64,000 nucleotides of DNA from Mogibacterium sp. Its GTDB lineage: Bacteria; Bacillota; Clostridia; Peptostreptococcales; Anaerovoracaceae. The number at the start of each line of letters is the position of its first letter. Within the stretch, counting starts at the first letter, position 1. Shown here piece by piece: positions 14,706 to 62,959 of the stretch. The notes below the pieces were generated by a model. The model did no database searches. It was not told where the DNA came from and saw nothing but the letters and a program-made list of their open reading frames with translations. Location of the stretch: the NCBI GenBank assembly GCA_017512145.1, contig JAFWHB010000009.1, forward strand, positions 1 to 64,000, given 5' to 3'. The position numbers and the translations under genes are program-made.

Positions 14706-16499
14706 CTATCTCTTGAGGTATCCTCTCAGAGGTCCGCCCGGAAGATTTGTTACATCCTTGATTGCCTCGCCGATCGATACAACCTTAGGGTTGGTTCTTG
14801 CAACAGTCTGATCTACCTCTGCCTTGATGTGCTCGTCATATTCAGGATGCGTTACTATGTAGAACTCATCGTTTTCAACAGCCTTGAATACTCTTTCGCC
14901 GAATCCTTCGATCGGATATCCTGTTCCGATTACGAATGCAGCAGACTGCTTGCCCTTCTTGAACATTTCGCTCTCATAGTAAGGATCATCGCCATGGGCA
15001 TATCTTGCAGGACGATACTCATCAGCATGATCAAAGTTGGTGCGTACGAATCCAGGGCAGAATACACTGAGGTGAATATCAGCGCCTGCTTCCTGCATCT
15101 CATACTCGATACACTCTGACAGAGCTACTGCAGCGTTCTTGGTTACATAGTATGCGCACATACCGGTACTTGTAATGAGTCCGGCAACTGAACATGTATT
15201 CATTATGTTGCAGTGTGTACCCTGAGCCTTCATGATAGGAACTACCTGTCTCATGAAGTATACATGTGAGAGGAAGTTGGTGCGGATGATCCACTCCCAA
15301 TCCTGAAGCGGAATCATGAAGCCAAATCCTGGTGTGCATGTTCCTGCGTTGTTCATAAGGAGATCGATCTGGCCGTACTTCTCCATTGTAGTCTTTACGA
15401 CCTTCTCTGTCTCCTCATACAGCGAAACATCTGCATGAATCAGAGTGATATCCTCTGCGCCATACTCTTTAGCGACATCCTCGATCTTGGCAAGCTCATC
15501 TTCCATGATGTCGACAGCAACGATCTTCATCTTGCGCTTAGCAGCTTCTTTGACGAATTCTTTACCGAATCCGTAAGCAGCACCTGTAATGATCGCAACT
15601 CTTCCTGTGAGGTCCTTATCACCACTTTCAACAACCTTGCGCTGTTTACCAACATTCCTGAGGTCAGGATTATTGCCATCAACCCTGTCATAGATCTGCT
15701 TCTTGATAAGTGGATCATACTGAGGATGTGTTACGATATAGAACTGATCCTCTTCGATAGCCTTGAAGCATTTCTCGCCAAATCCATCGATAGGAAGTCC
15801 GGTGGTTACGACATATTCACTTGCCTTCTCAGAAGCAAAGAATTCTGCACTCTGATAATACGGATCTGTAGGATCTGAGAATCTTGCAGGTCTGTGGCGC
15901 TCAGCGTGGTGCAGATCTGTCTGTACAAATCCAGGGCAGAAGATACTGATCTGGATATCTGCGCCGATTTCTTCGAGCTCATACTGAGTAGCTCTTGAAA
16001 GCTGAACAGCGGCATGCTTTGTCGAATAATAGCCAGGCATCGCATTACTTGTGATGAGTCCTGCGATTGAACATACGTTGAGGATGTTGCAGTGTGTTCC
16101 CTGCTTCATCATGATAGGAATTACCTGTCTCATCATATATACATGAGACATGAGGTTAGCATATACCATCCATTCCCAGTCCCTGAGAGGCAGGTTGGAT
16201 ATGGTGCCTCCCTTTCCTGTTCCTGCGTTGTTGATAAGAAGATCGATCTGACCGAACTTCTCCATAGCGCACTTTACGATCTTCTGAGTGTCCTCAAGAA
16301 GTGAAACATCGGCCTGCAGGCAGACGATTTCCTCTGCTCCGAGTTCTTTGGCAACAGGTTCACATCTCAGAACTTCATCGCCCTCGATATCTACAGCAAG
16401 GATCTTCATTCCGCGCTTTGCGGCCTCTTTGACATACTCGAAGCCGAATCCATTTGCGGCTCCGGTGATCACAGCTACTCTACCTTTAAAGTCTTTCAT
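14706..16499 (-). CDS. Tandem double short-chain dehydrogenase/reductase (SDR-SDR fusion)
   Basis: Protein of 597 residues made of two complete classical SDR domains in one chain. Domain 1 (about 1-285) has TGAANGFG (12-19), NNAG (90-93), S144 and Y157/K161. Domain 2 (about 296-597) has TGAAYGFG (305-312), NNAG (383-386), S437 and Y450/K454. Both active sites look intact, so both halves should oxidise or reduce alcohol/ketone groups with NAD(P). The start at 16499 follows GAGGGGG and the first domain begins there. Both halves resemble the single SDR at 21811-22680, indicating duplication and fusion. It lies 165 bases after an OYE-ADC fusion gene and probably works on the same substrate. Confidence 0.9.
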   Translation of the reverse strand: MKDFKGRVAVITGAANGFGFEYVKEAAKRGMKILAVDIEGDEVLRCEPVAKELGAEEIVCLQADVSLLEDTQKIVKCAMEKFGQIDLLINNAGTGKGGTISNLPLRDWEWMVYANLMSHVYMMRQVIPIMMKQGTHCNILNVCSIAGLITSNAMPGYYSTKHAAVQLSRATQYELEEIGADIQISIFCPGFVQTDLHHAERHRPARFSDPTDPYYQSAEFFASEKASEYVVTTGLPIDGFGEKCFKAIEEDQFYIVTHPQYDPLIKKQIYDRVDGNNPDLRNVGKQRKVVESGDKDLTGRVAIITGAAYGFGKEFVKEAAKRKMKIVAVDIMEDELAKIEDVAKEYGAEDITLIHADVSLYEETEKVVKTTMEKYGQIDLLMNNAGTCTPGFGFMIPLQDWEWIIRTNFLSHVYFMRQVVPIMKAQGTHCNIMNTCSVAGLITSTGMCAYYVTKNAAVALSECIEYEMQEAGADIHLSVFCPGFVRTNFDHADEYRPARYAHGDDPYYESEMFKKGKQSAAFVIGTGYPIEGFGERVFKAVENDEFYIVTHPEYDEHIKAEVDQTVARTNPKVVSIGEAIKDVTNLPGGPLRGYLKR

Positions 16500-16613
16500 A
16501 ATAAGCCCCCTCAATGAAATTCCTCAGTAGTTGTCAATATTTGTATCTATGTTAAGCCCTTTTTTAAATTTAATAGTCCCTTGTCACCTGTCCGTATCAG
16601 CCTTAAGGAGACT

Positions 16614-16664: not shown

Positions 16665-19481
16665 TTACTTGCGGCCTACTTCCATGAATGCTGTTCTGTC
16701 GTACCATGCAGGCAGGATCTTCTTCATTGTGGATTCTGCATCTACATCCTCAAGCTTCTGAAGTGCTGTGATGAGCAGATTGTTCTCAGCATAAGCACCG
16801 CCGATGATTGTGTTGACAGGCAGGCAGCCCCATGGGTCATCGATGCTTGACTTCAGCTCGAACTTGGTTACGAAGCCAGGCTTCCAGTCATCGTATTTGT
16901 ACTTAACAACGTTTCTCATCAGGAATACGTTAGCAAAGTTCCAGATGCCATCCTCGCCAGGCAGTCTGTCGAAGTGGATGTAGTATCCGCTTCCTGCTGT
17001 CTCAGCTCCTGGAGCAGGTGCCTGATAGAGTACGTGCATGAGTGGGTGGTTGTACTGACCGAGCTGCATCTCAAGATTGACAAGCTGTGTACCTCTTCTT
17101 GTTACTCCTACACAAACTTTGCCTGTCTCGTCATCTTTCCTGATAACGAACTCAGCATCAAGCTTCTTAGGAATAGCAGAGTTATCACGGCCAAGCTGTG
17201 TAGCCATTTCAGCACCCTGTCCGCCGAGTACCAGCGAGATAGTGTACATACCAAGCTGTCCCTTGTATGTACAGTAAACGCCAAGAATTGCCTCATAGTA
17301 ATTATCTGCGAATGTAGGATTCTTGATGTGGCAGCAGCTGACTGTTACTACTGGCATTGAGAATGGCTGAAGTGGTTCAGGCAGTACCTTCCTGATTGCT
17401 TCAGGCTGTGTCAGGTAAGCTACATATGTTCCCTCCTGACCTCTCATATGGCTGATCTTGGAGAATGACTTGAACTGTCCGTCGCCAATAGCGAAGCTGA
17501 GCTCCTCTTCCTTGAACAGGGATGCTCCTACTTCATATCCGCCTCTTGATGCAGGTGCGATGGTTCCGTCTACTACAGCGGATCCTACCATCTTTACACA
17601 CAGTCCCTTCTCTTCAAGAGCTGCCTTAAGGCTCTGATCCGGCTTATATCCGAGTGAGAGTACTACTGCATCACAGTCGATCTTCTTGAGCTCCTTAGTA
17701 TCTACATTCTCAACGCAGATTCCGTCAGCCATGATCTCCTTGAGAGCATTGCCGAGCTCGTACTTAGCGCCGAGTGCAGCAAGTCTTGTCTGAACGTCTA
17801 CTACATTCAGTCTGTAAGCATTAGGAGCAGCTACCTTGAGCATGTCTACGAATGTTACTTCAGCGCCTGTCTCAGCGATATATTCACCAGCTTCAAGTCC
17901 TGTAAGTCCTGCGCCGATCATTGCTACCTTCTTGCCTGAGAGGTCGACTTTGCCATTAAGAACATCGTTAACAGCATATACGTTGTCTCCATCTACGCCA
18001 GGAATGCTTGCAGGGAAGATGGATGTTGAACCTGTAGCGAGTACTACAGCTTCAGGCTCCATAGCTGCGATCTCATCAGCTGTTACTTCCTTGCCGAGGC
18101 AGCACTTAACGCCTGCATTCTTCATCTCATTAGCCATGTAGTCGATGAACCACTGCATTCTCTCCTTGCGAGGTGGCTTCTTAGCTAGGTTGACTGTTCC
18201 GCCGAGCTCTTCCTGACGGTCGAACAGTGTTACATCAACGCCTCTCTTAGCCAAAGTAGCAGCTGCGTACATTCCGCCAGGACCGCCGCCGACTACTACA
18301 GCTTTGTGCTCGCCCTTTACAGGCTCGAGATCTCCATAACGGAGCTCATTGCATGCACGTGGGTTAACAGCGCACTCGAATGGGAGTCCCTGAGCATTGA
18401 GTCCAAGCAGTGACTCGAAGCAGCGCAGACAAGCAATACACTTATTGAGCTCAGCAACTCTTCCCTCCTGAACCTTCTTGCCCCACTCTGCATCAGCGAT
18501 CCATGTTCTGCCCATTCCGACAAAGTCTACAACTCCGTCCTCAAGGAATGCTTCAGCTACTTCAGGCTCTCTGATTACAGATACAGCGATTACAGGAATA
18601 TTTACAACATTCTTGATGGCCTGGATCATAGGTTTTCTCCAGCCCTGTGGGAATGAGATAGGCTCTACCGAGAAGCTTCCTGTCTCATACAGACCGTCGG
18701 ATACATCGACGAAGTCGATTCCGGCCTCTTCGAGGCACTTAACGATCTTGATACCATCCTCGAGTCTGATCTGGTCACCTGTGTAACCAACCTTATCGAG
18801 GAATTCTACTACGGATACTCTGCAGCCGAGAGGAAAATCAGGGCCGCACTTCTTGCGGATGTCTTCGATGATCTCAAGAACGAGTCTCATTCTGTTCTCA
18901 AAGCTGCCACCGTATTCATAATCTCTGTAGTTTGTGTAAGGCGAGAGGAACTGCTGGAGCAGATATCCGTGAGCGCAGTGGAGTTCGATTCCATCGATGC
19001 CTGCCTTCTTGCATCTGAGTGCAGCATCACCGAACTGTCCAACGAGCTCGTGGATCTCCTCGATCGTCATAGGTCTTGTTTCCTGCTGCGATACCTTGCA
19101 GACTCTGTCAGAAGCGGATACACATGGCTGTCCGCCGATCAGTGAAGAAACACCTTCTCTGCCAGGATGGTGCAGCTGGATGAAAATCTTGGATCCATGC
19201 TTATGAACGGCCATAGCGAGTTCCTTGAGGCCCTGGATATGATAATCCTTGGTAGCAGCGATCTGTCTGAGCATTCCTGCACCTGTCTTCTCATTGACTC
19301 TGCAGATCTCAGGCATGATCAGTCCGCATCCACCTGCTGCTCTGTCTTCATAATACTTGATCATTGCAGGGCCAGGTGTTCCGTCAAGGTTAGCCAGATT
19401 GGTTCCCATCGGGGTCATTACCAGTCTGTTCTTAAGCTCGACATTGCCGATCTTACCTTTTTCAAATAGCTTATCGTACAT
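16665..19481 (-). CDS. OYE/FAD/NAD reductase fused to acetoacetate decarboxylase-like domain (copy 1)
   Basis: Protein of 938 residues. Residues 1-345 form an OYE FMN barrel with the signature HCAHGYLLQQFLSP (168-181) and YGGSFENR (190-197). C348, C351, C354 and C370 fit a [4Fe-4S] site. Residues 392-650 bind FAD (GGGPGG, 398-403) and NAD(P) (GAGLTG, 523-528), as in 2,4-dienoyl-CoA/2-enoate reductases, which end near here. A further 280 residues match acetoacetate decarboxylase: AIRKVLPEPL (695-704), YKGQLGMY (739-746), GRDNSAIPKK (764-773, with the Schiff-base lysine pair) and PVNTIIGG near 890. The start at 19481 follows AAGGAG. It may couple C=C reduction with decarboxylation or lysine-imine chemistry; the substrate is unknown. 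Confidence 0.9.
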   Translation of the reverse strand: MYDKLFEKGKIGNVELKNRLVMTPMGTNLANLDGTPGPAMIKYYEDRAAGGCGLIMPEICRVNEKTGAGMLRQIAATKDYHIQGLKELAMAVHKHGSKIFIQLHHPGREGVSSLIGGQPCVSASDRVCKVSQQETRPMTIEEIHELVGQFGDAALRCKKAGIDGIELHCAHGYLLQQFLSPYTNYRDYEYGGSFENRMRLVLEIIEDIRKKCGPDFPLGCRVSVVEFLDKVGYTGDQIRLEDGIKIVKCLEEAGIDFVDVSDGLYETGSFSVEPISFPQGWRKPMIQAIKNVVNIPVIAVSVIREPEVAEAFLEDGVVDFVGMGRTWIADAEWGKKVQEGRVAELNKCIACLRCFESLLGLNAQGLPFECAVNPRACNELRYGDLEPVKGEHKAVVVGGGPGGMYAAATLAKRGVDVTLFDRQEELGGTVNLAKKPPRKERMQWFIDYMANEMKNAGVKCCLGKEVTADEIAAMEPEAVVLATGSTSIFPASIPGVDGDNVYAVNDVLNGKVDLSGKKVAMIGAGLTGLEAGEYIAETGAEVTFVDMLKVAAPNAYRLNVVDVQTRLAALGAKYELGNALKEIMADGICVENVDTKELKKIDCDAVVLSLGYKPDQSLKAALEEKGLCVKMVGSAVVDGTIAPASRGGYEVGASLFKEEELSFAIGDGQFKSFSKISHMRGQEGTYVAYLTQPEAIRKVLPEPLQPFSMPVVTVSCCHIKNPTFADNYYEAILGVYCTYKGQLGMYTISLVLGGQGAEMATQLGRDNSAIPKKLDAEFVIRKDDETGKVCVGVTRRGTQLVNLEMQLGQYNHPLMHVLYQAPAPGAETAGSGYYIHFDRLPGEDGIWNFANVFLMRNVVKYKYDDWKPGFVTKFELKSSIDDPWGCLPVNTIIGGAYAENNLLITALQKLEDVDAESTMKKILPAWYDRTAFMEVGRK

Positions 19482-19626
19482 AGTATCTCCTTTCCTTCTT
19501 TCCAATACAGAAGCTAATAAGGATCGCCGTACTAATCGCGGCATAATAAACCAAAGAAATAAGTTTCCTGACTAAAGTATAAATTTCACAAAATAACCTT
19601 GCATTATCCTTTCTACCCAAAACATC

Positions 19627-19653
19627 AAAGGACATTTGTGCACGGTGTACAAT
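19627..19653 (+). promoter_or_regulatory. Composite operator shared by both OYE-ADC operons, site 1
   Basis: AAAGGACATTTGT, six bases, TGTACAAT. It includes the dyad TTGTGCA-N3-TGTACAA (19636-19652). The same composite (13 identical bases, six-base spacer, TGCACAAT) recurs on the minus strand at 21447-21473. Relative to the operon that each precedes, both copies have the same orientation. Confidence 0.65.
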
Positions 19654-19756
19654 ACAAGAAAATGCAAGGTGATGACCATCGTTCAGTCCCTTTTCAGACC
19701 GTCTTTTTTGCCAAATTGTGCACTATATATCATTGTGTATTTAGGATATCTTCCAA

Positions 19757-19785
19757 TTGACTTCTTGTGCATAGTACACTATTCT
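19757..19785 (+). promoter_or_regulatory. Candidate promoter of the PucR-type regulator gene
   Basis: TTGACT (19757-19762) and TATTCT (19780-19785) with a 17-base spacer, 50 bases before the ATG. A TTGTGCATAGTACAC dyad lies in the spacer, so bound regulator would cover the promoter, suggesting autoregulation. Confidence 0.55.
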
Positions 19786-19834: not shown

Positions 19835-21367
19835 ATGATATTCCGCGATATTATTTCCAGACTTGAATCAATGTGTCAGATAGAGAAGCTGTCAGATTCC
19901 TTTGAGGATGAGATCCTTGAGGTCCAGTTCATCGATTTCAGACAGCAGGAATTCAGCGACAACATTCTGTACTTCAGCAATAACATGCAGGAGTGCAGCA
20001 AACTCCCGCGTCAGTGCGTATTCTCGGAGTCAGTGGCAAAAGGCCGCTTTGACCTCGATAACGGCAATTATGCCATCGTATCTGAGAGCGACTTCGGCTA
20101 TGCTTTCAACACAGCATTTCAGCTTGTCATTGGCTCTCACAAGGATGACTACTATGAATCGATGATGAGCACCCTTGACAGGGTCAAGGATGTCGACACT
20201 CTGATTGACATCGGATCTCAGACATTCGGCGCTTCACTTGTTTTCATAGACAGAGATTTCAGGATACTCAGTTATTCAACTCAGATCCCGGTTACGGATG
20301 ATCTTTGGAAGAAGAATATTGAGAGGGGTTACTGTGACTATGAATTCATTCAGACAGTCAAATCTCTCAAGTCAGTGCAGATGGCTGACTCGACTATGAA
20401 CCCTATCGAAGTGTCATGTTCTTCATCACCTTTCCAGAAATTCTCGAGCCGTGTATACTGCCATGATACATGGATCGGATTTCTCATCGTCATTGAAGGT
20501 TATGACTCATACAGGCCTGAACATGTTGAAATGCTAAGGATCCTGAGCGGTGTTGTAGGATATGCAGTAATGAAATACGCACCGAGTTACATGTATATGA
20601 CCAGTGATTATCACAGGTTCCTGTACAACCTTATCATCGGTGCCGAACCGGCTTCTCTCCCTGAGGCTTATACGCATCTTACCTTCCCGTCAGAGCTTCA
20701 GGTTCTCTATTGCAAAGCAACAAGGAACGGCTCGCAATTCCCTCGCGAGGGCGAATTATCTGAGGCTTTGACAATGGTCATGCCGGGTTGTCATGTCATA
20801 TCTCAGAGAGATAACGCAGCGATTATCGGCAGCAGTGAAATGCTGAATAAGATCGGATCGATTGCAGCTCTCTTCCCTGACAAGTGCCGCGTCAAAATAG
20901 GTGTCAGTCTTCCATTCAGCAATATTGAGACTCTCAGAGCTCATTTCCGTGAAGCCATAGATGCTTTCGAGACCGGAGAGATGCTCGATGCTGATATCGG
21001 GATATACACATTCGAGGATTATGGCATATATGTAATGTTCAGAACAGTTTCTGACAGTGAAGACCTAAGCAGGTATCTGCACCCTGCTATTCCTAAGCTC
21101 GCCGATTACGACAAGGCAAACAATGCCAACCTCGAGCTCACTCTTCATACATACCTGAAGCATGCCTGCAACACAACTGAGACTGCTGATGCTCTCTATC
21201 TGCACCGCAACAGTGTCATCTACAGGCTCCGCAGGATCGAAGAATTGTGTGATATTGACCTGACAGACACAGACACCAGGTTCCGTCTCAGACTGTCTTA
21301 TGCCATTAGTAACGTCATCAATCAGAAGCGTAAATGGGCAGGAAAGCAGTTCGGATCTCTGGGATAG
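19835..21367 (+). CDS. PucR/CdaR-type transcriptional regulator
   Basis: Protein of 510 residues. The C-terminal part (about 430-490) is a PucR-type helix-turn-helix: LTLHTYLKHACN, then TADALYLHRNSVIYRLRRI. The middle has a GAF-like or GGDEF-like CdaR sensor region, and the N-terminal third is unrecognised. GAGGTG precedes the ATG. Such regulators respond to a small metabolite and control catabolic genes. It stands between two operons that encode OYE-ADC fusions and SDRs, with shared TTGTGCA sites in front of both operons and of itself, so it is the likely regulator of the whole locus. Confidence 0.85.
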   Translation: MIFRDIISRLESMCQIEKLSDSFEDEILEVQFIDFRQQEFSDNILYFSNNMQECSKLPRQCVFSESVAKGRFDLDNGNYAIVSESDFGYAFNTAFQLVIGSHKDDYYESMMSTLDRVKDVDTLIDIGSQTFGASLVFIDRDFRILSYSTQIPVTDDLWKKNIERGYCDYEFIQTVKSLKSVQMADSTMNPIEVSCSSSPFQKFSSRVYCHDTWIGFLIVIEGYDSYRPEHVEMLRILSGVVGYAVMKYAPSYMYMTSDYHRFLYNLIIGAEPASLPEAYTHLTFPSELQVLYCKATRNGSQFPREGELSEALTMVMPGCHVISQRDNAAIIGSSEMLNKIGSIAALFPDKCRVKIGVSLPFSNIETLRAHFREAIDAFETGEMLDADIGIYTFEDYGIYVMFRTVSDSEDLSRYLHPAIPKLADYDKANNANLELTLHTYLKHACNTTETADALYLHRNSVIYRLRRIEELCDIDLTDTDTRFRLRLSYAISNVINQKRKWAGKQFGSLG

Positions 21368-21572: not shown

Positions 21573-21767
21573 ATGAAGATAATAGCTAAGATACTCGGCA
21601 GCTGCATTGGAATTCTTGCAGTCTGTCATACAGCTGAATGGTTCCTCGAGGGACGCAAGGTAGCTAAGGCAGCAGGCATACCGGTCAGCAAAGCATTACC
21701 GCTTTGTCTCCTTAAAGGATTTGTCTGGTGGAAGCCTCTTAAGAAGGAGCTCGATCTGAACAAGTAA
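21573..21767 (+). CDS. Small hydrophobic protein leading the second OYE-ADC operon
   Basis: Protein of 64 residues. A hydrophobic N-terminal segment (IIAKILGSCIGILAVCHTAEWF, residues 3-24) could be a membrane helix; the rest is basic with a WWKP motif. GAGGTG stands about nine bases before the ATG. It is 43 bases before the SDR gene in the same transcript. I recognise no family. It could anchor the oxidoreductases to the membrane or be a small regulator; both are inference. Confidence 0.6.
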   Translation: MKIIAKILGSCIGILAVCHTAEWFLEGRKVAKAAGIPVSKALPLCLLKGFVWWKPLKKELDLNK

Positions 21768-21810
21768 TTCATTATTGATTATCAATTCTAGTCTAAGGAG
21801 GTGCGTTAAA

Positions 21811-22680
21811 ATGAAAGATTTTGCTGGTAGAGTCGCTTTGATCACCGGTGCGGCTCATGGATTTGGTAAGGAATTCGTCAAAGAAGCATCAATGCGCGGA
21901 ATGAAGATCGCAGCTGTAGACATTATGGAGGATGCTCTTAGTGAGATCGAGCCTCTTGCCAGAGAACTGGGCGCTGCAGATGTGATGCTCTTCCCTTGCG
22001 ATGTTACAGAATATGAGCAGGTCAAGTGTGTTGTAAGCAAAGTCATGGAAGCATACGGGCAGATAGATCTTCTTATGAACAATGCCGGTGTAGCTACATT
22101 CGGTCCTGTCTGGGCGGTTCCGCCTCTCGAATATGAGTGGATCATCGACACCAATCTCAAATCCCATGTTTATTTCATGCATGAAGTCATTCCTGTAATG
22201 ATCAAACAGGGAACGCCTTGCAATATAGTTAATACTTGCTCAGCAGCAGGTACATTCACATCAAAGAGTGCAGCTGCTTATCAGGCATCCAAATTCGGTG
22301 CTCTTGCCCTGACTGAGTCTGTATATTATGACCTGATTGCATTTGGCGTTAACAATATCCATATAAGCGCTTACTGTCCTGGATTCATACAGACCAATCT
22401 CGATCACTCTGAAGAGTATAAGCAGGACAAATACAAGGTCGAAAGTCCATATTACGGCAGCGCACTTCATCAGAAGATGCAAGGTGCTGCTCAGTTCCTC
22501 ATCAAGACAGGCCGCGCAATTGACGAAGCCGGCCCTGTCGTATTCAAGGCTATAGAAGATGATCAGCTGTATATCATCACTCATGAGCACTATGACAAAT
22601 ACATCCAGGCCCGCTGCGAGAATATGCTCGCAAGGAGAAATCCTGAGGCTGTAGAGATTGACCACAACATCAAGAGATAG
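21811..22680 (+). CDS. Short-chain dehydrogenase/reductase (single SDR domain)
   Basis: Protein of 289 residues. The ATG at 21811 follows AAGGAGGTG. Classical SDR marks: TGAAHGFG (12-19), NNAG (about 90-93), a serine in NTCSAAG and a YQASK active site (Y-x-x-x-K, about 157-161). It closely resembles each half of the tandem SDR at 14706-16499, including GFGKEFVKEA and YCPGFIQTNLDH. It should act as NAD(P)-dependent alcohol dehydrogenase/ketone reductase. The OYE-ADC gene starts 10 bases after its stop, so the two are translated together. Confidence 0.92.
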   Translation: MKDFAGRVALITGAAHGFGKEFVKEASMRGMKIAAVDIMEDALSEIEPLARELGAADVMLFPCDVTEYEQVKCVVSKVMEAYGQIDLLMNNAGVATFGPVWAVPPLEYEWIIDTNLKSHVYFMHEVIPVMIKQGTPCNIVNTCSAAGTFTSKSAAAYQASKFGALALTESVYYDLIAFGVNNIHISAYCPGFIQTNLDHSEEYKQDKYKVESPYYGSALHQKMQGAAQFLIKTGRAIDEAGPVVFKAIEDDQLYIITHEHYDKYIQARCENMLARRNPEAVEIDHNIKR

Positions 22681-22690
22681 GAGGCCAATA

Positions 22691-25504
22691 ATGTACGATA
22701 TTCTATTTCAGAAAGGTAAAATCGGTAATGTCGAGCTCAAGAACAGACTAGTCATGTCCCCTATGGGAAGCAATCTCGCAGAGCTTGACGGTTCCTGCGG
22801 AGATGCCATGATCGCATACTACGAAGCAAGAGCCAAAGGCGGATGCGGTCTGATCATCCCTGAAATCTGCAGAGTGAACGATGCTACCGGTGCAGGCTCC
22901 TTCAGACAGCTGTCCGTAACCAAGGACCGCCATATCGAAGGACTGTCAAAGCTCGCTGCAGCCATCCACAAGCATGGCTCCAAGGTTTTCATCCAGCTCC
23001 ACCACCCTGGCAGAGAAGGTGTATCAAGACTTATCGGCGGACAGCCATGCGTATCGGCATCAGACAGAGTATGCCTGTACTCAAATCAGCCTACAAGAGC
23101 CCTTACTCATGACGAAGTTCTCGAGCTGATCGAACAGTTCAGCGACGGAGCTGTAAGATGCCAGAAGGCAGGAATCGACGGAATAGAACTGCACTGCGCA
23201 CACGGATACCTCCTTGAGCAGTTCCTATCGCCATACACAAACTTCCGTACAGACGAATACGGCGGAAGCTTCGAGAACAGAATGAGATTTGTCAAAAACA
23301 TCATCGACAAGATCCGCGAGAAATGCGGTCCTGACTATGTTGTCGGCATGAGACTCTCTGTTGACGAAATGCTCGCTCACAACGGCGTAACAGAACCGTT
23401 CATCGATCTTGAGGAAGGCGTTAAAATCGTAAAATACTTCGAAGAAGTCGGTATAGATTTCATCGATGTCAGCTGCGGTATCTATGAGACACTCAACTGG
23501 GCAATCGAACCGACATCCTTCCCTGAAGGCTGGAGAAGACCTATGATTCAGGCTGTAAAGAACGCTGTAAGCATTCCTGTAATGGCAGTATCTGCCATCA
23601 GAAGCCCTGAGATCGCAGCCGAGTTCATGGAGGAAGGCGTATATGACTTCGCTGAATTCGGAAGAACATGGCTTGCAGATCCTGAATGGGGTGTCAAGGT
23701 ACAGGAAGGCCGTATCGATGAGCTCAATAAGTGCATCAACTGTCTGCGCTGCTTCGAGACACTGCTGACAATCAACGCTCAGCTCCAGCCATTCCAGTGT
23801 GCTGTCAACCCTGTAATGGGAAGAGAGCTTAAGTGTGGCAAACTCGAACCTGTTGTCGGAGATAAGAAAGCTGTCGTTGTCGGCGGCGGCCCTGGCGGAA
23901 TGTATGCCGCAAAGACTTTGGCCGAAAGAGGCGTCAAAGTCACTCTTGTCGACAGACAGGATGAACTCGGCGGAACAGTCAACCTCGCTAAGCTCCCTCC
24001 TCTCAAGGAAAGAATGCAGAACTTCATCGACTACATGGGTAATCAGCTCTGCAAGCTTGGTGTAGATGTACAGCTCGGCAAGGAAGTTACAGCTGATGAT
24101 ATCGCTGCCATGGAGCCTGATGCAGTAGTACTTGCTACAGGTTCGAAGAGCATAGTTCCTGCAAGCATCCCTGGTGCAGATGGACCGAACGTATTCACTG
24201 TCGAGGAAGCTCTGACAGGCAAAGTCGATTTCACAGGCAAGCATGTTGCAATGATCGGTGCAGGACTGACAGGACTTGAAGCCGCTGAATTCCTTGGAGA
24301 GAAAGGAATCAAGGTCACAATAGTTGATATGGTTGACAGGCCTGCTCCTACTGCTTACATAGCAAATGTCATCGATGTAATGGGCAGAATCAAGAAGATG
24401 GACATCGCTCTCGAACTCAAGAACGCACTGAAAGCCGTTGAGGCAGATGGTGTCTGCATTGAAAATACAGAGACTGGTGAACAGAAGAAGATCGAGTGCG
24501 ATGCAGTTGTAATGTCCCTTGGATACAAGCCTGATCAAAGTCTCAAGGCTGCTCTTGAGGAGAAAGGCATCTGCGTCAAACTGGTTGGTTCAGCTATCAA
24601 GGACGGAACAATGGGACCTGCTACAAGAACAGGATACGATGTCGGTGCTTCACTCTTCGCTGAGGCTAAGCCAAGCTTTGTAACATCCCCTGAGAAGATG
24701 GCTGCATTCGCTAAGGACTGCGCAATGAAGAAGCAGGAAGGCGTATACATGCTCTATGCTACTGATCCTGCCAAGATCAGAGAAATACTGCCTGCACCGC
24801 TCGAGCCATATGCACTTCCTCTCGTATATCTCTCAGCTAACCACATCAATGAGCCTACATTTGCAGACAACTACTATGAATCGATTCTGGGCGTATACTG
24901 CACATACAAAGGCCAGCTCGGACTCTACTGCATCAGCCTCGTTCTCGGAGGCCAGGGTGCTGAGATGGCAACAGCCCTCGGCCGTGATGTCCTCTCCATC
25001 CCTAAGAAGGTAGATGCTGAGTTCGTCATCAGGAAGGACGATGAGGCAGGCAAAGTCACCGTTGCTGTTTCGAGAAGAGGCACACAGCTCATCGACATGA
25101 AGCTGAGACTCGGTGAGTACAACCATCCGATGACTCACCTCATCTTCCAGGCACCTTCTGCCGGAAAAGAGACCATGGGATATGGTTACTACATGCACTT
25201 TGATCAGATGCCTGATGCAGAAGGCGGTTCGAAGTTCAGCACATGCCTCACCAAGGTGCTCTGCAAATACAACTACAAGGGCTGGATTCCTGCATTCGTA
25301 GAGGATCTCAAACTGCAGTCCAGTGTTGATGATCCTTGGGCACAGCTGCCTATAGAAACCATCATCGGCGCAGGATACTCACAGAATGATCTCTTCCTCG
25401 GAACAAGCCAGTTCTGCGAAGAAACCGATCCTGCAGACACAATGCCTAAGATCATTCCTGCATGGTATGACCTCAGTGCATTTGGCGTAACAGGAAGGAA
25501 GTAG
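22691..25504 (+). CDS. OYE/FAD/NAD reductase fused to acetoacetate decarboxylase-like domain (copy 2)
   Basis: Protein of 937 residues with the same modules and motif positions as copy 1: OYE signature HCAHGYLLEQFLSP (168-181), Fe-S cysteines C348, C351, C354 and C370, FAD motif GGGPGG (398-403), NAD(P) motif GAGLTG (523-528), then the ADC-like part with KIREILPAPL (695-704), YKGQLGLY (739-746) and GRDVLSIPKK (764-773). The two copies align without gaps over about the first 830 residues. AGGAGG precedes the start at 22691. Conservation of the lysine pair in both copies argues that the decarboxylase-like domain is functional. Differences such as YVVGMRLSVDEML around the barrel rim may mean different substrates. 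Confidence 0.9.
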   Translation: MYDILFQKGKIGNVELKNRLVMSPMGSNLAELDGSCGDAMIAYYEARAKGGCGLIIPEICRVNDATGAGSFRQLSVTKDRHIEGLSKLAAAIHKHGSKVFIQLHHPGREGVSRLIGGQPCVSASDRVCLYSNQPTRALTHDEVLELIEQFSDGAVRCQKAGIDGIELHCAHGYLLEQFLSPYTNFRTDEYGGSFENRMRFVKNIIDKIREKCGPDYVVGMRLSVDEMLAHNGVTEPFIDLEEGVKIVKYFEEVGIDFIDVSCGIYETLNWAIEPTSFPEGWRRPMIQAVKNAVSIPVMAVSAIRSPEIAAEFMEEGVYDFAEFGRTWLADPEWGVKVQEGRIDELNKCINCLRCFETLLTINAQLQPFQCAVNPVMGRELKCGKLEPVVGDKKAVVVGGGPGGMYAAKTLAERGVKVTLVDRQDELGGTVNLAKLPPLKERMQNFIDYMGNQLCKLGVDVQLGKEVTADDIAAMEPDAVVLATGSKSIVPASIPGADGPNVFTVEEALTGKVDFTGKHVAMIGAGLTGLEAAEFLGEKGIKVTIVDMVDRPAPTAYIANVIDVMGRIKKMDIALELKNALKAVEADGVCIENTETGEQKKIECDAVVMSLGYKPDQSLKAALEEKGICVKLVGSAIKDGTMGPATRTGYDVGASLFAEAKPSFVTSPEKMAAFAKDCAMKKQEGVYMLYATDPAKIREILPAPLEPYALPLVYLSANHINEPTFADNYYESILGVYCTYKGQLGLYCISLVLGGQGAEMATALGRDVLSIPKKVDAEFVIRKDDEAGKVTVAVSRRGTQLIDMKLRLGEYNHPMTHLIFQAPSAGKETMGYGYYMHFDQMPDAEGGSKFSTCLTKVLCKYNYKGWIPAFVEDLKLQSSVDDPWAQLPIETIIGAGYSQNDLFLGTSQFCEETDPADTMPKIIPAWYDLSAFGVTGRK

Positions 25505-52081: not shown

Positions 52082-54154
52082 ATGAAGAAGGAATATGAAC
52101 CTCTATTCACGCCTTGGAAGATCGGCAATGTTGAGATTCCTAACAGAATCGTGCAGACTTCCATGGGAGGAACTTCTCTGTTCGGATGGCTCGAGCCTTG
52201 CCACTTTGACAAGGAAGCAGCTTATCACATTCTGAACCGTGCTCAGGAGCATGTTGGTCTGGTACTTCCGGGCATGCAGTGCGTAAGAGACACAATGGGA
52301 AGAAGATGGCTCTATCAGAACAAGAAGATGTTCAAGGATCTTGCAGAGTGGATGCCTGAATTCCACAAGACAGGTTCCAAGCTGTTCATTCAGCTGGCTG
52401 GTGGATTCGGCCGTTCAATGGCTATTAACGACATGTTCGTTAAGATGCTGCAGAACAAGGCATTCGGCGCAGTTGCTAAGCCATTCGTAGATATCGAATA
52501 CTGCTGCGCTTCTGCTTCTGAGACACCTAACAGATGGTATCCTGAGATCAAGTCAAGACCTATGACTGTCGAAGAGATCCATGAGATGGTTGAGGCTTTC
52601 GCTAAGACAGCTAAGATGTGCAAGGATGCCGGTGTAGACGGTGTTGAAATCCACGCTGTACACGAAGGTTACCTGCTCGACCAGTTCACTATTGCTAACA
52701 TGAACTACAGAACTGACCAGTACGGCGGTTCTTTCGAGAACAGATTCAGATTCCCTGTTGAGATCGTACAGGCTATCAAGAGAGAATGCGGACAGGACTT
52801 CCCTGTTGCACTGAGATACTCTGTAGTATCCAAGACCAAGGGTTGGCTCCAGGGCGCACAGCCTGGCGAAGACTTCGTAGAATTTGGTCGTGACATGGCT
52901 GAATCCGAGAAGGCTATCAAGTACCTTGAGGATGCAGGATATGATATGTTCAACTGCGACAATGGTACATACGATGCTTGGTACTGGGCTCACCCACCTG
53001 TCTATATGCCTGACAACTGCAACTTCGAGGATGTTGCTCACATCAAGAAGTTCACATCCAAGCCTGTTGTCTGCGCTGGTAAGATGGACATCAAGTTCGC
53101 TGCTGAAGAGATCAAGAAGGGTTCAATCGATGCTCTTGGTATCGCTCGTCAGAACCTGGTTGACCCTGAATGGGTTACCAAGATCATGGAAGGCAGAGAA
53201 GACGAGATCAAGCCATGTATCAGATGCCACAATGCTTGCTTCAACTTTGCTAAGTCCAAGCACACAGCTAATACACAGCCTCTGTTCGACTCACTCCAGC
53301 TTGCCCGCTGCGCTCTGACACCTCAGACAATGCAGCACAACAAGTACAAGATCGTTCCTGCAAGCAAGCCTAAGAAGGTCGCTATCGTTGGTGCCGGATT
53401 CGGCGGACTCGAGGCAGCTCTCGTTCTCAAGAAGAGAGGCCATCAGCCTGTAGTATTCGAGAAGTCCGACAAGATGTTCGGTCTCTACAACACTGCTAGC
53501 GCAATGTCCTTCAAGGATGCTGACAAGCTGCTCATTAAGTGGTATGAGAGAGAACTCAAGAAGTGGGATATCGATGTTAGACTCAACACTGAGATCAAGG
53601 ACATCACTTCCCTGCTCAAGTCCTATGATGATGTTATCGTATCAATCGGTACATTCCCTAAGGCAATCAACATTCCTGGATTCGACAAGGCTATCACATT
53701 CACTGATCTCCTGATCGGACCTGACAAGGATAAGTTCAACAAGATCGTATTCCTCGGCGGCGGACTTTCATCCTGCGAAGCTGCATATGATGCAGTACTC
53801 GCTGGCAAGAAGCCTGTAGTAGTAGAGTTCCAGGATGACCTGATCACAGCTCCTGGTACCTGCCTTGCTAACTCCTCATTCCTGAGAGAGGCTCTGCCAT
53901 TCAAGGGCGTTCCTGTACATCTGAGATCCACAGTTACCGAGATCGGCGACGGATACTGCATGATCAAGAACGTTGAGACTGGCGAAGTCTGGAAGGAAGA
54001 GTGTGACTGCGTTGTAAACGGTCTCGGATTTGTTCCTAACGATCAGTTCGCATCCATCAAGAACAAGCACCTCCACAGATGCGGAACATGCGTCAAGTGG
54101 GGAGCACTCAGAGAAGTAATCTGGGGAGCATGGGATGTAGCCATGACTATTTAA
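52082..54154 (+). CDS. OYE-type flavin/Fe-S/FAD oxidoreductase with divergent barrel signature
   Basis: Protein of 690 residues. The FMN barrel (1-370) has the signature HAVHEGYLLDQFTIAN (191-206), with an extra Glu and FTIA where most relatives have FLSP; YGGSFENR is kept (214-221). [4Fe-4S] ligands are C379, C382, C386 and C410, the last spaced by 23 residues. FAD motif GAGFGG is at 437-442 and NAD(P) motif GGGLSS at 569-574. GGGAGGATAAGAAGG precedes the ATG. It belongs to the 2-enoate/dienoyl-CoA reductase group that includes BaiCD/BaiH-like steroid enzymes; substrate unknown. It is a single-gene transcript ending in the hairpins at 54181-54327. Confidence 0.88.
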   Translation: MKKEYEPLFTPWKIGNVEIPNRIVQTSMGGTSLFGWLEPCHFDKEAAYHILNRAQEHVGLVLPGMQCVRDTMGRRWLYQNKKMFKDLAEWMPEFHKTGSKLFIQLAGGFGRSMAINDMFVKMLQNKAFGAVAKPFVDIEYCCASASETPNRWYPEIKSRPMTVEEIHEMVEAFAKTAKMCKDAGVDGVEIHAVHEGYLLDQFTIANMNYRTDQYGGSFENRFRFPVEIVQAIKRECGQDFPVALRYSVVSKTKGWLQGAQPGEDFVEFGRDMAESEKAIKYLEDAGYDMFNCDNGTYDAWYWAHPPVYMPDNCNFEDVAHIKKFTSKPVVCAGKMDIKFAAEEIKKGSIDALGIARQNLVDPEWVTKIMEGREDEIKPCIRCHNACFNFAKSKHTANTQPLFDSLQLARCALTPQTMQHNKYKIVPASKPKKVAIVGAGFGGLEAALVLKKRGHQPVVFEKSDKMFGLYNTASAMSFKDADKLLIKWYERELKKWDIDVRLNTEIKDITSLLKSYDDVIVSIGTFPKAINIPGFDKAITFTDLLIGPDKDKFNKIVFLGGGLSSCEAAYDAVLAGKKPVVVEFQDDLITAPGTCLANSSFLREALPFKGVPVHLRSTVTEIGDGYCMIKNVETGEVWKEECDCVVNGLGFVPNDQFASIKNKHLHRCGTCVKWGALREVIWGAWDVAMTI

Positions 54155-61015: not shown

Positions 61016-62959
61016 TTAGATGCTGAGCGCGATGTCAGCTGCCTCATATGTAGCTCCCCATACGAATCCTGCCTTCTTAGCATCGCCGATGACATATACA
61101 TCATCTACGAGCTCCTTGACAGCCTCTTCGAGTGGGTTGTATGCCTTGTGGCCAAGTGCAAGTACGATTGAATCAAATCCATCAAGTACTTCTACCTCAG
61201 GATCCTTCTTGAGGAGATCCTTGTATGTGATTCCGCCAGGGATGAACTCCTGGATAGCTGTGCTTGCCATCATCCTGATGCCTGCTTCCTTCATCTCATT
61301 AAGGAGCATCGGCTTAGCATATGGGTCGAGATCCATTACGAATCCGTCCTTCATCTCTACGATGGTAACGTCTCTCTTCTGCTCAGCAAGGAATGCTGCT
61401 GTTTCAGCTCCGATAAGTCCGCCGCCGCATACGAGTACCTTATGTCCTGTTACCTTCTTTCCGAGGAGAACTTCTGTAGGCTCGAGGATGTTAGCAGGAT
61501 CAAGTCCAGGGATCCTTGGAACGAGGTTCTTGCTGCCTGTTGCGAGGATAACTGCATCCGGCTTCTCAGCCTTGATAAGATCAGCAGTTACTTCTGTGTT
61601 AAGGTGAACATCTACGCCGTACTTGTCGCACTGCTTGATCCAGTATCCGATTCCTCTGCCGATTGTTCCCTTTCCCGGAGGATATGAAGCTGCGAGGAAT
61701 TCTCCGCCAAGGTGATCATCCTTCTCATAAAGTGAAACGTTGTGTCCGCGTCCTGCTGCGATCCATGCTGCGTGCATTCCGCCAGGACCGCCGCCTACTA
61801 CCATGATCTTCTTAGGGGACTGTGTCTTGTTTGCTACATACTCTTCTTCACATCCGTTAGTAGTGTTGACTACGCAGCGCATTGGCTCGTCTGTGAAGCA
61901 GTGCATGATGCAGCCCTGTCCGCATGAAATGCAAGGCATGATGTCTTCATAACGCTCTTCGAGAACTTTGGCTGCGAAGTGTGGATCTGCAACTGATGCT
62001 CTTCCGATGCAAACCATGTCAGCGCTTCCGTCTCTTACAACTGCCTCAGCGATCTCGCCGTCAGTGATTCTTCCTACTGTCATTACAGGAATGTTTACAG
62101 CCTGCTTGATTGCTGCTGCGTGTGGTACCTGATATCCAGGTGCGAGGTATGATGAACCTACGCAGTACTGGAGGCTTCCGTATGTGGAGATCGATATGTT
62201 GATTGCATCTACGCCCTCTTCCTCGAGCATCTGAGCAACTGCTTTGGTCTCCTGGATCTCACGGCCGCCTTCGAGCATCTCAGATCCGCTGAGTCTTACT
62301 ACGATCGGATAACCTTCGCCTACAACTTCTCTTGTATATCTGATGACCAGCTTGAGGAATCTCATTCTGTTGTTCAGAGATCCGCCAAATTCATCTGTTC
62401 TCTTGTTTGCGTGTAATGAGAGGAACTGTGCTGGAAGATATCCGTGTGAAGCGTGGATCTCAAGTCCGTCATATCCTGCTTCCTTTACTCTTCTTGCAGC
62501 CTGTGCGTACTCTTCGATTACTCCGTAAACTTCTTCAGTTGTGAGTGCTCTTGGCATCTCCTGGCATGCAGGGCAAGGTACTGCGGAAGGAGCAACTACT
62601 TCGAGGCCCTCTGTGTATCCCTTGTTGGTCTCTCTGCCTGTGTGTCTCAGCTGGCAGAAGATCTTAGCGCCTGCTTCGTGAACAGAATCAGTCAGCTTCT
62701 TGTAGCTAGGAATTACGTAATCATCCCACATTCCGCATTCGTCCTTGAGGGACTTACCATTTCTTGCTATAGCGGAGCACTCCTGGATGATGAGTCCGAA
62801 TCCGCCCTTAGCTCTTTCGGTGTAATACTTGATGAGTTCATCGGATGCTTCTCCATTGTGCTTTGCAAGGTTAGTTCCCATTGCCGGTACAACGAGTCTG
62901 TTCTTGATTGTGACATTACCGATCTTGATTGGTTCTGCCAGTGCTCTGATCTTGGACAT
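61016..62959 (-). CDS. OYE-type flavin/Fe-S/FAD oxidoreductase
   Basis: Protein of 647 residues, usual length for the 2-enoate/2,4-dienoyl-CoA reductase group. FMN barrel 1-335 with HASHGYLPAQFLSL (169-182) and FGGSLNNR (191-198). Fe-S ligands C343, C346, C350 and C362. FAD motif GGGPGG at 389-394 and a second GGGLIG near 505-510. The C-terminus returns to the usual GDAKKAG...AADIALSI end, so there is no ADC-like domain. AAAGGAGC precedes the ATG. First gene of an operon with MFS and ADH genes and divergent from a TetR-type regulator. Substrate unknown. Confidence 0.9.
   Translation of the reverse strand: MSKIRALAEPIKIGNVTIKNRLVVPAMGTNLAKHNGEASDELIKYYTERAKGGFGLIIQECSAIARNGKSLKDECGMWDDYVIPSYKKLTDSVHEAGAKIFCQLRHTGRETNKGYTEGLEVVAPSAVPCPACQEMPRALTTEEVYGVIEEYAQAARRVKEAGYDGLEIHASHGYLPAQFLSLHANKRTDEFGGSLNNRMRFLKLVIRYTREVVGEGYPIVVRLSGSEMLEGGREIQETKAVAQMLEEEGVDAINISISTYGSLQYCVGSSYLAPGYQVPHAAAIKQAVNIPVMTVGRITDGEIAEAVVRDGSADMVCIGRASVADPHFAAKVLEERYEDIMPCISCGQGCIMHCFTDEPMRCVVNTTNGCEEEYVANKTQSPKKIMVVGGGPGGMHAAWIAAGRGHNVSLYEKDDHLGGEFLAASYPPGKGTIGRGIGYWIKQCDKYGVDVHLNTEVTADLIKAEKPDAVILATGSKNLVPRIPGLDPANILEPTEVLLGKKVTGHKVLVCGGGLIGAETAAFLAEQKRDVTIVEMKDGFVMDLDPYAKPMLLNEMKEAGIRMMASTAIQEFIPGGITYKDLLKKDPEVEVLDGFDSIVLALGHKAYNPLEEAVKELVDDVYVIGDAKKAGFVWGATYEAADIALSI

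Follow-up and report, generated by a model that had tools for sequence, protein, structure and literature searches.

A 2-enoate-reductase-type flavoprotein fused to an acetoacetate decarboxylase-fold domain in Mogibacterium and other anaerobes

What would a single polypeptide do that begins as an OYE-type ene-reductase and ends as a domain resembling acetoacetate decarboxylase (ADC)? The question is raised by a stretch of 64,000 nucleotides from Mogibacterium sp. (assembly GCA_017512145.1, contig JAFWHB010000009.1, positions 1 to 64,000), which we refer to as the window. An initial annotation of these letters described such a protein in two copies and proposed, as its first choice, that it reduces a substrate and then decarboxylates it. 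We followed up this proposal with domain, structure, genome and literature searches.

Two fusion genes and their domains

Copy 1 (938 aa) occupies positions 16665-19481. The initial annotation gave this extent without a strand; the fusion frame is indeed unbroken, and it is encoded on the minus strand (ORF 16665-19544), the plus-strand reading of the same stretch being full of stops. The ORF is extendable to 19544, and orthologues begin at the methionine of MYDKLF (19481), with AAAGGAGA just 5' of MYDKLF. Its 2-enoate-reductase/FadH-like half (FMN barrel, Fe-S cysteines, and FAD/NAD domains) was placed by Pfam at 17508-19481, and its ADC-fold domain (residues 661-938 plus stop) by Pfam and alignment at 16665-17501. 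Copy 2 (937 aa) lies on the plus strand at 22691-25504, as Pfam also finds it. The corresponding flavoprotein half is at 22691-24664 (Pfam, AlphaFold model, and a fold match to 2-naphthoyl-CoA reductase) and the ADC-fold domain at 24671-25504 (Pfam, alignment, AlphaFold model, and fold matches). Alignment places the codons of a PKK lysine pair, K772/K773 (equivalent to ADC K115/K116), at 17163-17168 on the minus strand in copy 1 and at 25004-25009 on the plus strand in copy 2.

The two proteins share 65% identity over 938 aligned residues and have the same Pfam domains, in keeping with the arrangement first described. Oxidored_FMN (E = 2e-75 and 6e-72) and Pyr_redox_2 (E = 2e-32 and 2e-28) both matched far above their curated cut-offs. 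ADC (PF06314) matched the last 240-280 residues of both proteins (E = 1.6e-35 and 2.4e-34, the latter for copy 1), with scores of 123 and 119 bits against a gathering cut-off of 29.8. Each copy is a 2-enoate-reductase/FadH-type flavoprotein joined to an ADC domain.

The flavoprotein half carries the ene-reductase active-site residues H168, H171, and Y173 and the Fe-S cysteines C348, C351, C354, and C370, the latter at the positions already annotated; all seven are invariant in 64/64 fusions. Its domain order and its Fe-S and active-site residues place it among the multidomain ene-reductases (the FadH, NCR, and BaiCD superfamily). The solved 2-naphthoyl-CoA reductase NCR (6qkg) has the same FMN barrel, [4Fe-4S] cysteines, and FAD/NAD domains (TM-score 0.89 by target length, 30% identity), and E. 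coli 2,4-dienoyl-CoA reductase FadH (1ps9) shares the architecture of the N-terminal half (TM-score 0.86 by target length, 27% identity). NCR and FadH end at about 670 residues without an ADC-fold domain, whereas the fusion continues into one. The best-scoring curated families over the full length of the OYE half were the BaiCD bile-acid flavoenzyme (NF041087) and the long bilirubin reductase (NF045599), which, unlike the fusion, have no ADC domain. The two copies scored 469.4 and 466.2 bits against the BaiCD cut-off of 825, and the bilirubin reductase model gave 414 bits against 750; hence the OYE half belongs to neither equivalog. For each curated OYE equivalog with a match, its score fell under the cut-off, and we rejected membership in the BaiCD, bilirubin reductase, and mycofactocin OYE families, all being well below cut-off. 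Two more OYE-type flavoproteins, both without an ADC domain, lie in the window at 52082-54154 (plus strand) and 61016-62959 (minus strand). Genome-wide there are about eight, two of which read with one internal stop.

We modeled the C-terminal domain alone (residues 658-937) and the full-length protein with AlphaFold. The isolated domain gave a confident prediction (pLDDT 93.3, pTM 0.90) that superimposed on the ADC structure 3bh2 with Z 25.1 over 231 residues at 3.4 A, bearing out the ADC fold that had been suggested for this part. The aldolase-dehydratases Sbi_00515, Swit_4259, and MppR followed with Z 21-22.6, and the ADCs and these three were the only strong structural relatives. Foldseek ranked them likewise (3e-16 to ADC and 3e-11 to the aldolase-dehydratases). 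Among the matches listed in the sequence and fold searches, no solved chain carried both OYE and ADC domains. The full-length model, built with 47 orthologues, reached pLDDT 83 and pTM 0.64 with the linker (residues 659-665) below pLDDT 50, and the mutual placement of the two halves that it predicts is not confident.

Spread and origin of the fusion

A scan for the ADC domain in a species-representative genome collection returned 73 loci, about 60 of which encode a full-length fusion of 935-941 aa. Carriers include Mogibacterium and its relatives, Lachnospiraceae, Oscillospiraceae, Clostridium, Acetobacterium, Sinanaerobacter, and an Olsenella, so that the fusion is found in two phyla, in Clostridia and in Coriobacteriia. 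The closest relatives are rumen Clostridiales and Mogibacterium metagenome-assembled genomes (MAGs), at about 90% identity in the ADC domain, and the window thus most probably comes from a Mogibacterium-like bacterium of the rumen. The initial annotation had called the fusion stable and not an artefact, and these orthologues bear it out. An assembly artefact or read-through is ruled out by the constant length and unbroken frames in independent genomes; the Pfam matches, the fold, and the roughly 60 orthologues likewise speak against a C-terminal part that arose by chance or mis-translation, which we reject.

The distribution is patchy. Sampled scans found the fusion in 3 of 118 other genomes of the same family, in one more among 391 genomes of the class, in 5 of 40 genomes of the family of the Acetobacterium-like genomes, and in 5 of 199 genomes of the class of Olsenella. 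Apart from the window's own, no further fusion appeared in 299 sampled genomes of the phylum, and the module is therefore rare per genome. In two Coriobacteriia loci the fusion ORFs (L135:7673-10990 and L136:8011-11328) are about 165 residues longer at the N-terminus and lie next to another OYE gene, which is BaiCD-like (525 bits against the cut-off of 825).

The same partners also occur as separate genes. Four relatives of Acetobacterium (L123-L126) have an OYE (641-650 aa, 37-40% identity to the fusion's OYE half), an ADC-like protein (281-289 aa, 27-31% identity), and a short-chain dehydrogenase (SDR; double in two of the four genomes) as adjacent genes in varying order. A further locus, L027, encodes a glycyl radical enzyme and its activase, then an ADC-like protein (35%) and an OYE (44%). 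The glycyl radical enzyme scored 987 bits, just below the sulfopropanediol dehydratase cut-off of 1000. Compared with the fusion, L123-L126 add a membrane-like protein and L027 adds the glycyl radical enzyme. The former, of about 340 aa, is conserved, has no Pfam match, and is encoded immediately 5' of the unfused OYE genes (L123:301-1332, L124:4461-5489, L125:5335-6345, and L126:11871-12839). The L027 genes (L027:4958-12762), with a divergent LysR regulator, look like an undescribed operon, and the literature searched held no description of either gene set.

Maximum-likelihood trees of the two halves are congruent. The fusions form one clade with support of 100/99 in both the ADC and the OYE tree, followed by L027 as the next branch (88/82 and 81/79) and then by the L123-L126 group; in both trees, then, the unfused sets are sister branches. 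The trees indicate a single origin of the fusion among the sequences sampled. Because the partners occur as separate neighboring genes and their trees agree, the two proteins were partners before they became fused; the join of OYE and ADC is ancient and widespread.

Neighboring genes and candidate operators

The genes around the two copies run in the order double SDR (minus), fusion copy 1 (minus), PucR-type regulator (plus), SDR (plus), and fusion copy 2 (plus). The double SDR (14706-16514, minus strand, about 602 aa), in which Pfam finds two fused short-chain dehydrogenase domains, is directly downstream of copy 1. The regulator (19835-21367, plus strand) is of the PucR/CdaR type with a C-terminal HTH_30 by Pfam and is divergent from copy 1. 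The single SDR (21811-22680, plus strand; 289 aa, Pfam; ORF listed from 21775) is directly upstream of copy 2. A short ORF of about 64 aa lies between the regulator and the SDR (about 21574-21768, plus strand); at that position, Mogibacterium genomes related to this one carry a gene for a 3HCDH-type dehydrogenase of 319 aa (L030 4154-5113). The double SDR likewise accompanies the fusion in four other loci (L045, L048, L085, and L100) and is part of two of the unfused operons, L123 and L126.

This operon is conserved in Clostridia. Many of the 73 loci are cut by contig ends; even so, within a distance of five ORFs, a PucR-type regulator accompanies the fusion in 51 of them and an SDR in 46. Neither was found beside the fusion in the five Coriobacteriia loci examined, and the case for an operon is therefore built on Clostridia. 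The dehydrogenases themselves vary. The SDRs fall into three subfamilies (PRK06194-type, gluconate-dehydrogenase-type, and PRK06172-type), a zinc alcohol dehydrogenase adjoins the fusion in L019/L101, and a 3HCDH-type dehydrogenase scoring over its cut-off (NF006143) is present in the Mogibacterium group as well as close to a Coriobacteriia fusion, that is, in two phyla. Since unrelated dehydrogenase families are swapped beside the fusion, the swapping points to an alcohol/carbonyl step as the constant. Beyond PucR, the dehydrogenases, and the one-clade 3HCDH, no transporter or pathway gene that might serve as a substrate clue recurred across the 73 loci. The outer genes (CbiM/CbiQ, Ser dehydratase, hydantoinase, Orn/DAP decarboxylase, and DAP dehydrogenase) were each confined to a single clade, and we left them out of account.

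The gap between the regulator and copy 1 contains TTGTGCA at 19636, 19716, and 19765 (span 19636-19781, plus strand; by motif count), and one of these sites sits within the near-palindrome TTGTGCACGGTGTACAA. With a longer pattern, 3 sites were found versus 0.59 expected. Among 47 orthologous regulator/fusion gaps TGCACAA led the 7-mers in enrichment, occurring in 29 of them versus 1.5 expected from simple shuffles, which keep base composition only and treat gaps from related genomes as if they were independent. These counts make TTGTGCA a plausible candidate operator.

The ADC-fold site and the proposed chemistry

We mapped the active site through alignments, using the residue numbers of C. 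acetobutylicum ADC. The C-terminal domain has the score, the fold, and the Schiff-base lysine (PKK) of the ADC superfamily (PF06314). The lysines are at K772/K773, as annotated, and are kept in 64/64 fusions together with E730 (Glu76); aligned with solved ADC structures, the lysine would sit in the pocket. In the same 64 sequences Arg29 is replaced by Gln (Q682) and Glu61 by Ser (S715), so that two of the five catalytic-site positions marking true ADCs are changed. Arg29 and Glu61 matter for decarboxylation in ADC. All true ADCs aligned (L010, L012, L013, 3bh2, 3bgt, and 3c8w) carry both, whereas the unfused OYE-linked ADC proteins, too, have Gln at the Arg29 position. The C. acetobutylicum-type ADC (3bh2, 3bgt) thus shares the fold, the PKK lysine pair, and Glu76 with the fusion at 17-21% identity, but has Arg29 and Glu61 in place of Gln and Ser and is not fused to a flavoprotein. 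Of the features of acetoacetate decarboxylase proper (EC 4.1.1.4), the fusion has Glu76 and lacks Arg29 and Glu61.

The aldolase-dehydratases Sbi_00515 (6eej, 4zbt), Swit_4259 (5upb), and MppR (4jmd) are stand-alone proteins of the same fold with 13-16% identity to the domain. From PDB titles and general background, we take this group to use the lysine for aldol condensation and dehydration. Swit_4259, whose PDB entry calls it an ADC-like enzyme, shows Ala and Tyr at the Arg29/Glu61 positions and keeps YNEAAL and PKK where the fusion has YYEAIL and PKK, in a sequence match that spans only the N-terminal half of the fusion's ADC domain. Loss of Arg29/Glu61 with retention of the lysine and Glu76 is thus common to the fusion and Swit_4259, the one member of the group with which this pattern was compared. 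By Z and Foldseek scores the domain is slightly closer to ADCs, so we do not file it with the aldolase-dehydratases; its mode of action may nonetheless be like theirs.

Could the domain be a binding or assembly module without catalysis? Many members of the ADC superfamily have unknown roles, and the linker and the domain arrangement are not firmly predicted. However, five positions of the pocket, along with many other polar residues, do not vary across 47-64 sequences, and separate ADC genes travel with an OYE gene. Because of this invariance, we regard a non-catalytic domain as very unlikely.

Decarboxylation is the main rival among catalytic roles. Here the SDR or 3HCDH would make a beta-keto acid, the ADC domain would decarboxylate it to a ketone, and the OYE half would reduce a C=C before or after. 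The Pfam ADC score far over the cut-off, the retained lysine pair and Glu76, the beta-hydroxy-acid type dehydrogenases in the operon, and the ADCs as closest structural matches are all consistent with such a route. It is weakened, on alignment evidence, by the invariant Gln and Ser found in every fusion where all true ADCs compared have Arg29 and Glu61. We consider it somewhat unlikely, and reduction followed by decarboxylation is no longer the first choice that the initial annotation made it. Its second suggestion, that the lysine serves an aldol or dehydration step, fares better: because Arg29/Glu61 are absent in Swit_4259 too, with the lysine and Glu76 kept, aldol/dehydration chemistry fits better than decarboxylation. 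The suggested order is probably reversed, since an ADC-fold step of this kind would make the double bond and hence precede reduction.

The reading we favor, to which we give a probability of roughly 45%, is that the fusion is a two-step enzyme whose ADC-fold domain forms a C=C through a lysine Schiff base and whose flavoprotein half reduces it. We infer the steps as follows. K772 (ADC K115) of the PKK motif would react with a ketone or aldehyde to give a Schiff base. The resulting enamine would lose water or another beta leaving group to give an alpha,beta-unsaturated carbonyl (enone or enal); alternatively, this product could arise from an aldol condensation plus dehydration. The N-terminal half would then reduce the C=C, with electrons passing from NAD(P)H to FAD, to the [4Fe-4S] cluster, and to FMN. 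A neighboring dehydrogenase would make or remove the carbonyl by carbonyl/alcohol interconversion. Overall, the route would be one of deoxygenation or chain editing, inducible under PucR control, through which a fermenting anaerobe also gets rid of reducing equivalents. Three points count against this two-step reading: (i) a 3-hydroxyacyl-CoA-type dehydrogenase neighbor would also suit the making of a beta-keto acid for decarboxylation; (ii) Glu76 is common to true decarboxylases too; and (iii) the halves are not confidently placed relative to each other (pTM 0.64, linker 659-665).

The flavoprotein half might instead run in the oxidizing direction, as BaiCD does, installing a C=C alongside a carbonyl for the ADC domain to use in a (retro-)aldol or hydration step of a degradation route. 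PucR regulation is of a catabolic type, and BaiCD is the best-scoring curated model for the OYE half, yet below cut-off (469 vs 825 bits). The unfused relative L027, in contrast, lies in a fermentation-type glycyl-radical dehydratase operon, which favors reduction, and we judge the oxidizing direction improbable.

A more specific form of the two-step reading is a self-contained deoxygenation enzyme, in which Schiff-base elimination in the ADC-fold site feeds reduction in the flavin site and which rumen and gut anaerobes use on dietary or host compounds. We offer it tentatively, as a doubtful but conceivable case; such a coupling of iminium chemistry and ene-reduction is not known to have been described. 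Each half belongs to a described superfamily, and their fusion with its own regulator is undescribed in the literature searched. The initial annotation likewise knew of no described enzyme of this kind. Our search covered open-access full text, with subscription papers outside its scope, and found no account of an OYE-ADC fusion, which is weak evidence of absence.

The join is old, spans two phyla, and in Clostridia is tied to a dehydrogenase and a regulator; hence a real pathway of anaerobes in gut and rumen lies behind it, which present-day annotation would probably mask by naming the protein as a generic oxidoreductase. Schiff-base chemistry with ene-reduction is a pairing that chemists also build by hand for cascades. 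Both the relatives with separate genes and the invariant exchange to Gln and Ser offer a handle on roles of the ADC fold besides decarboxylation.
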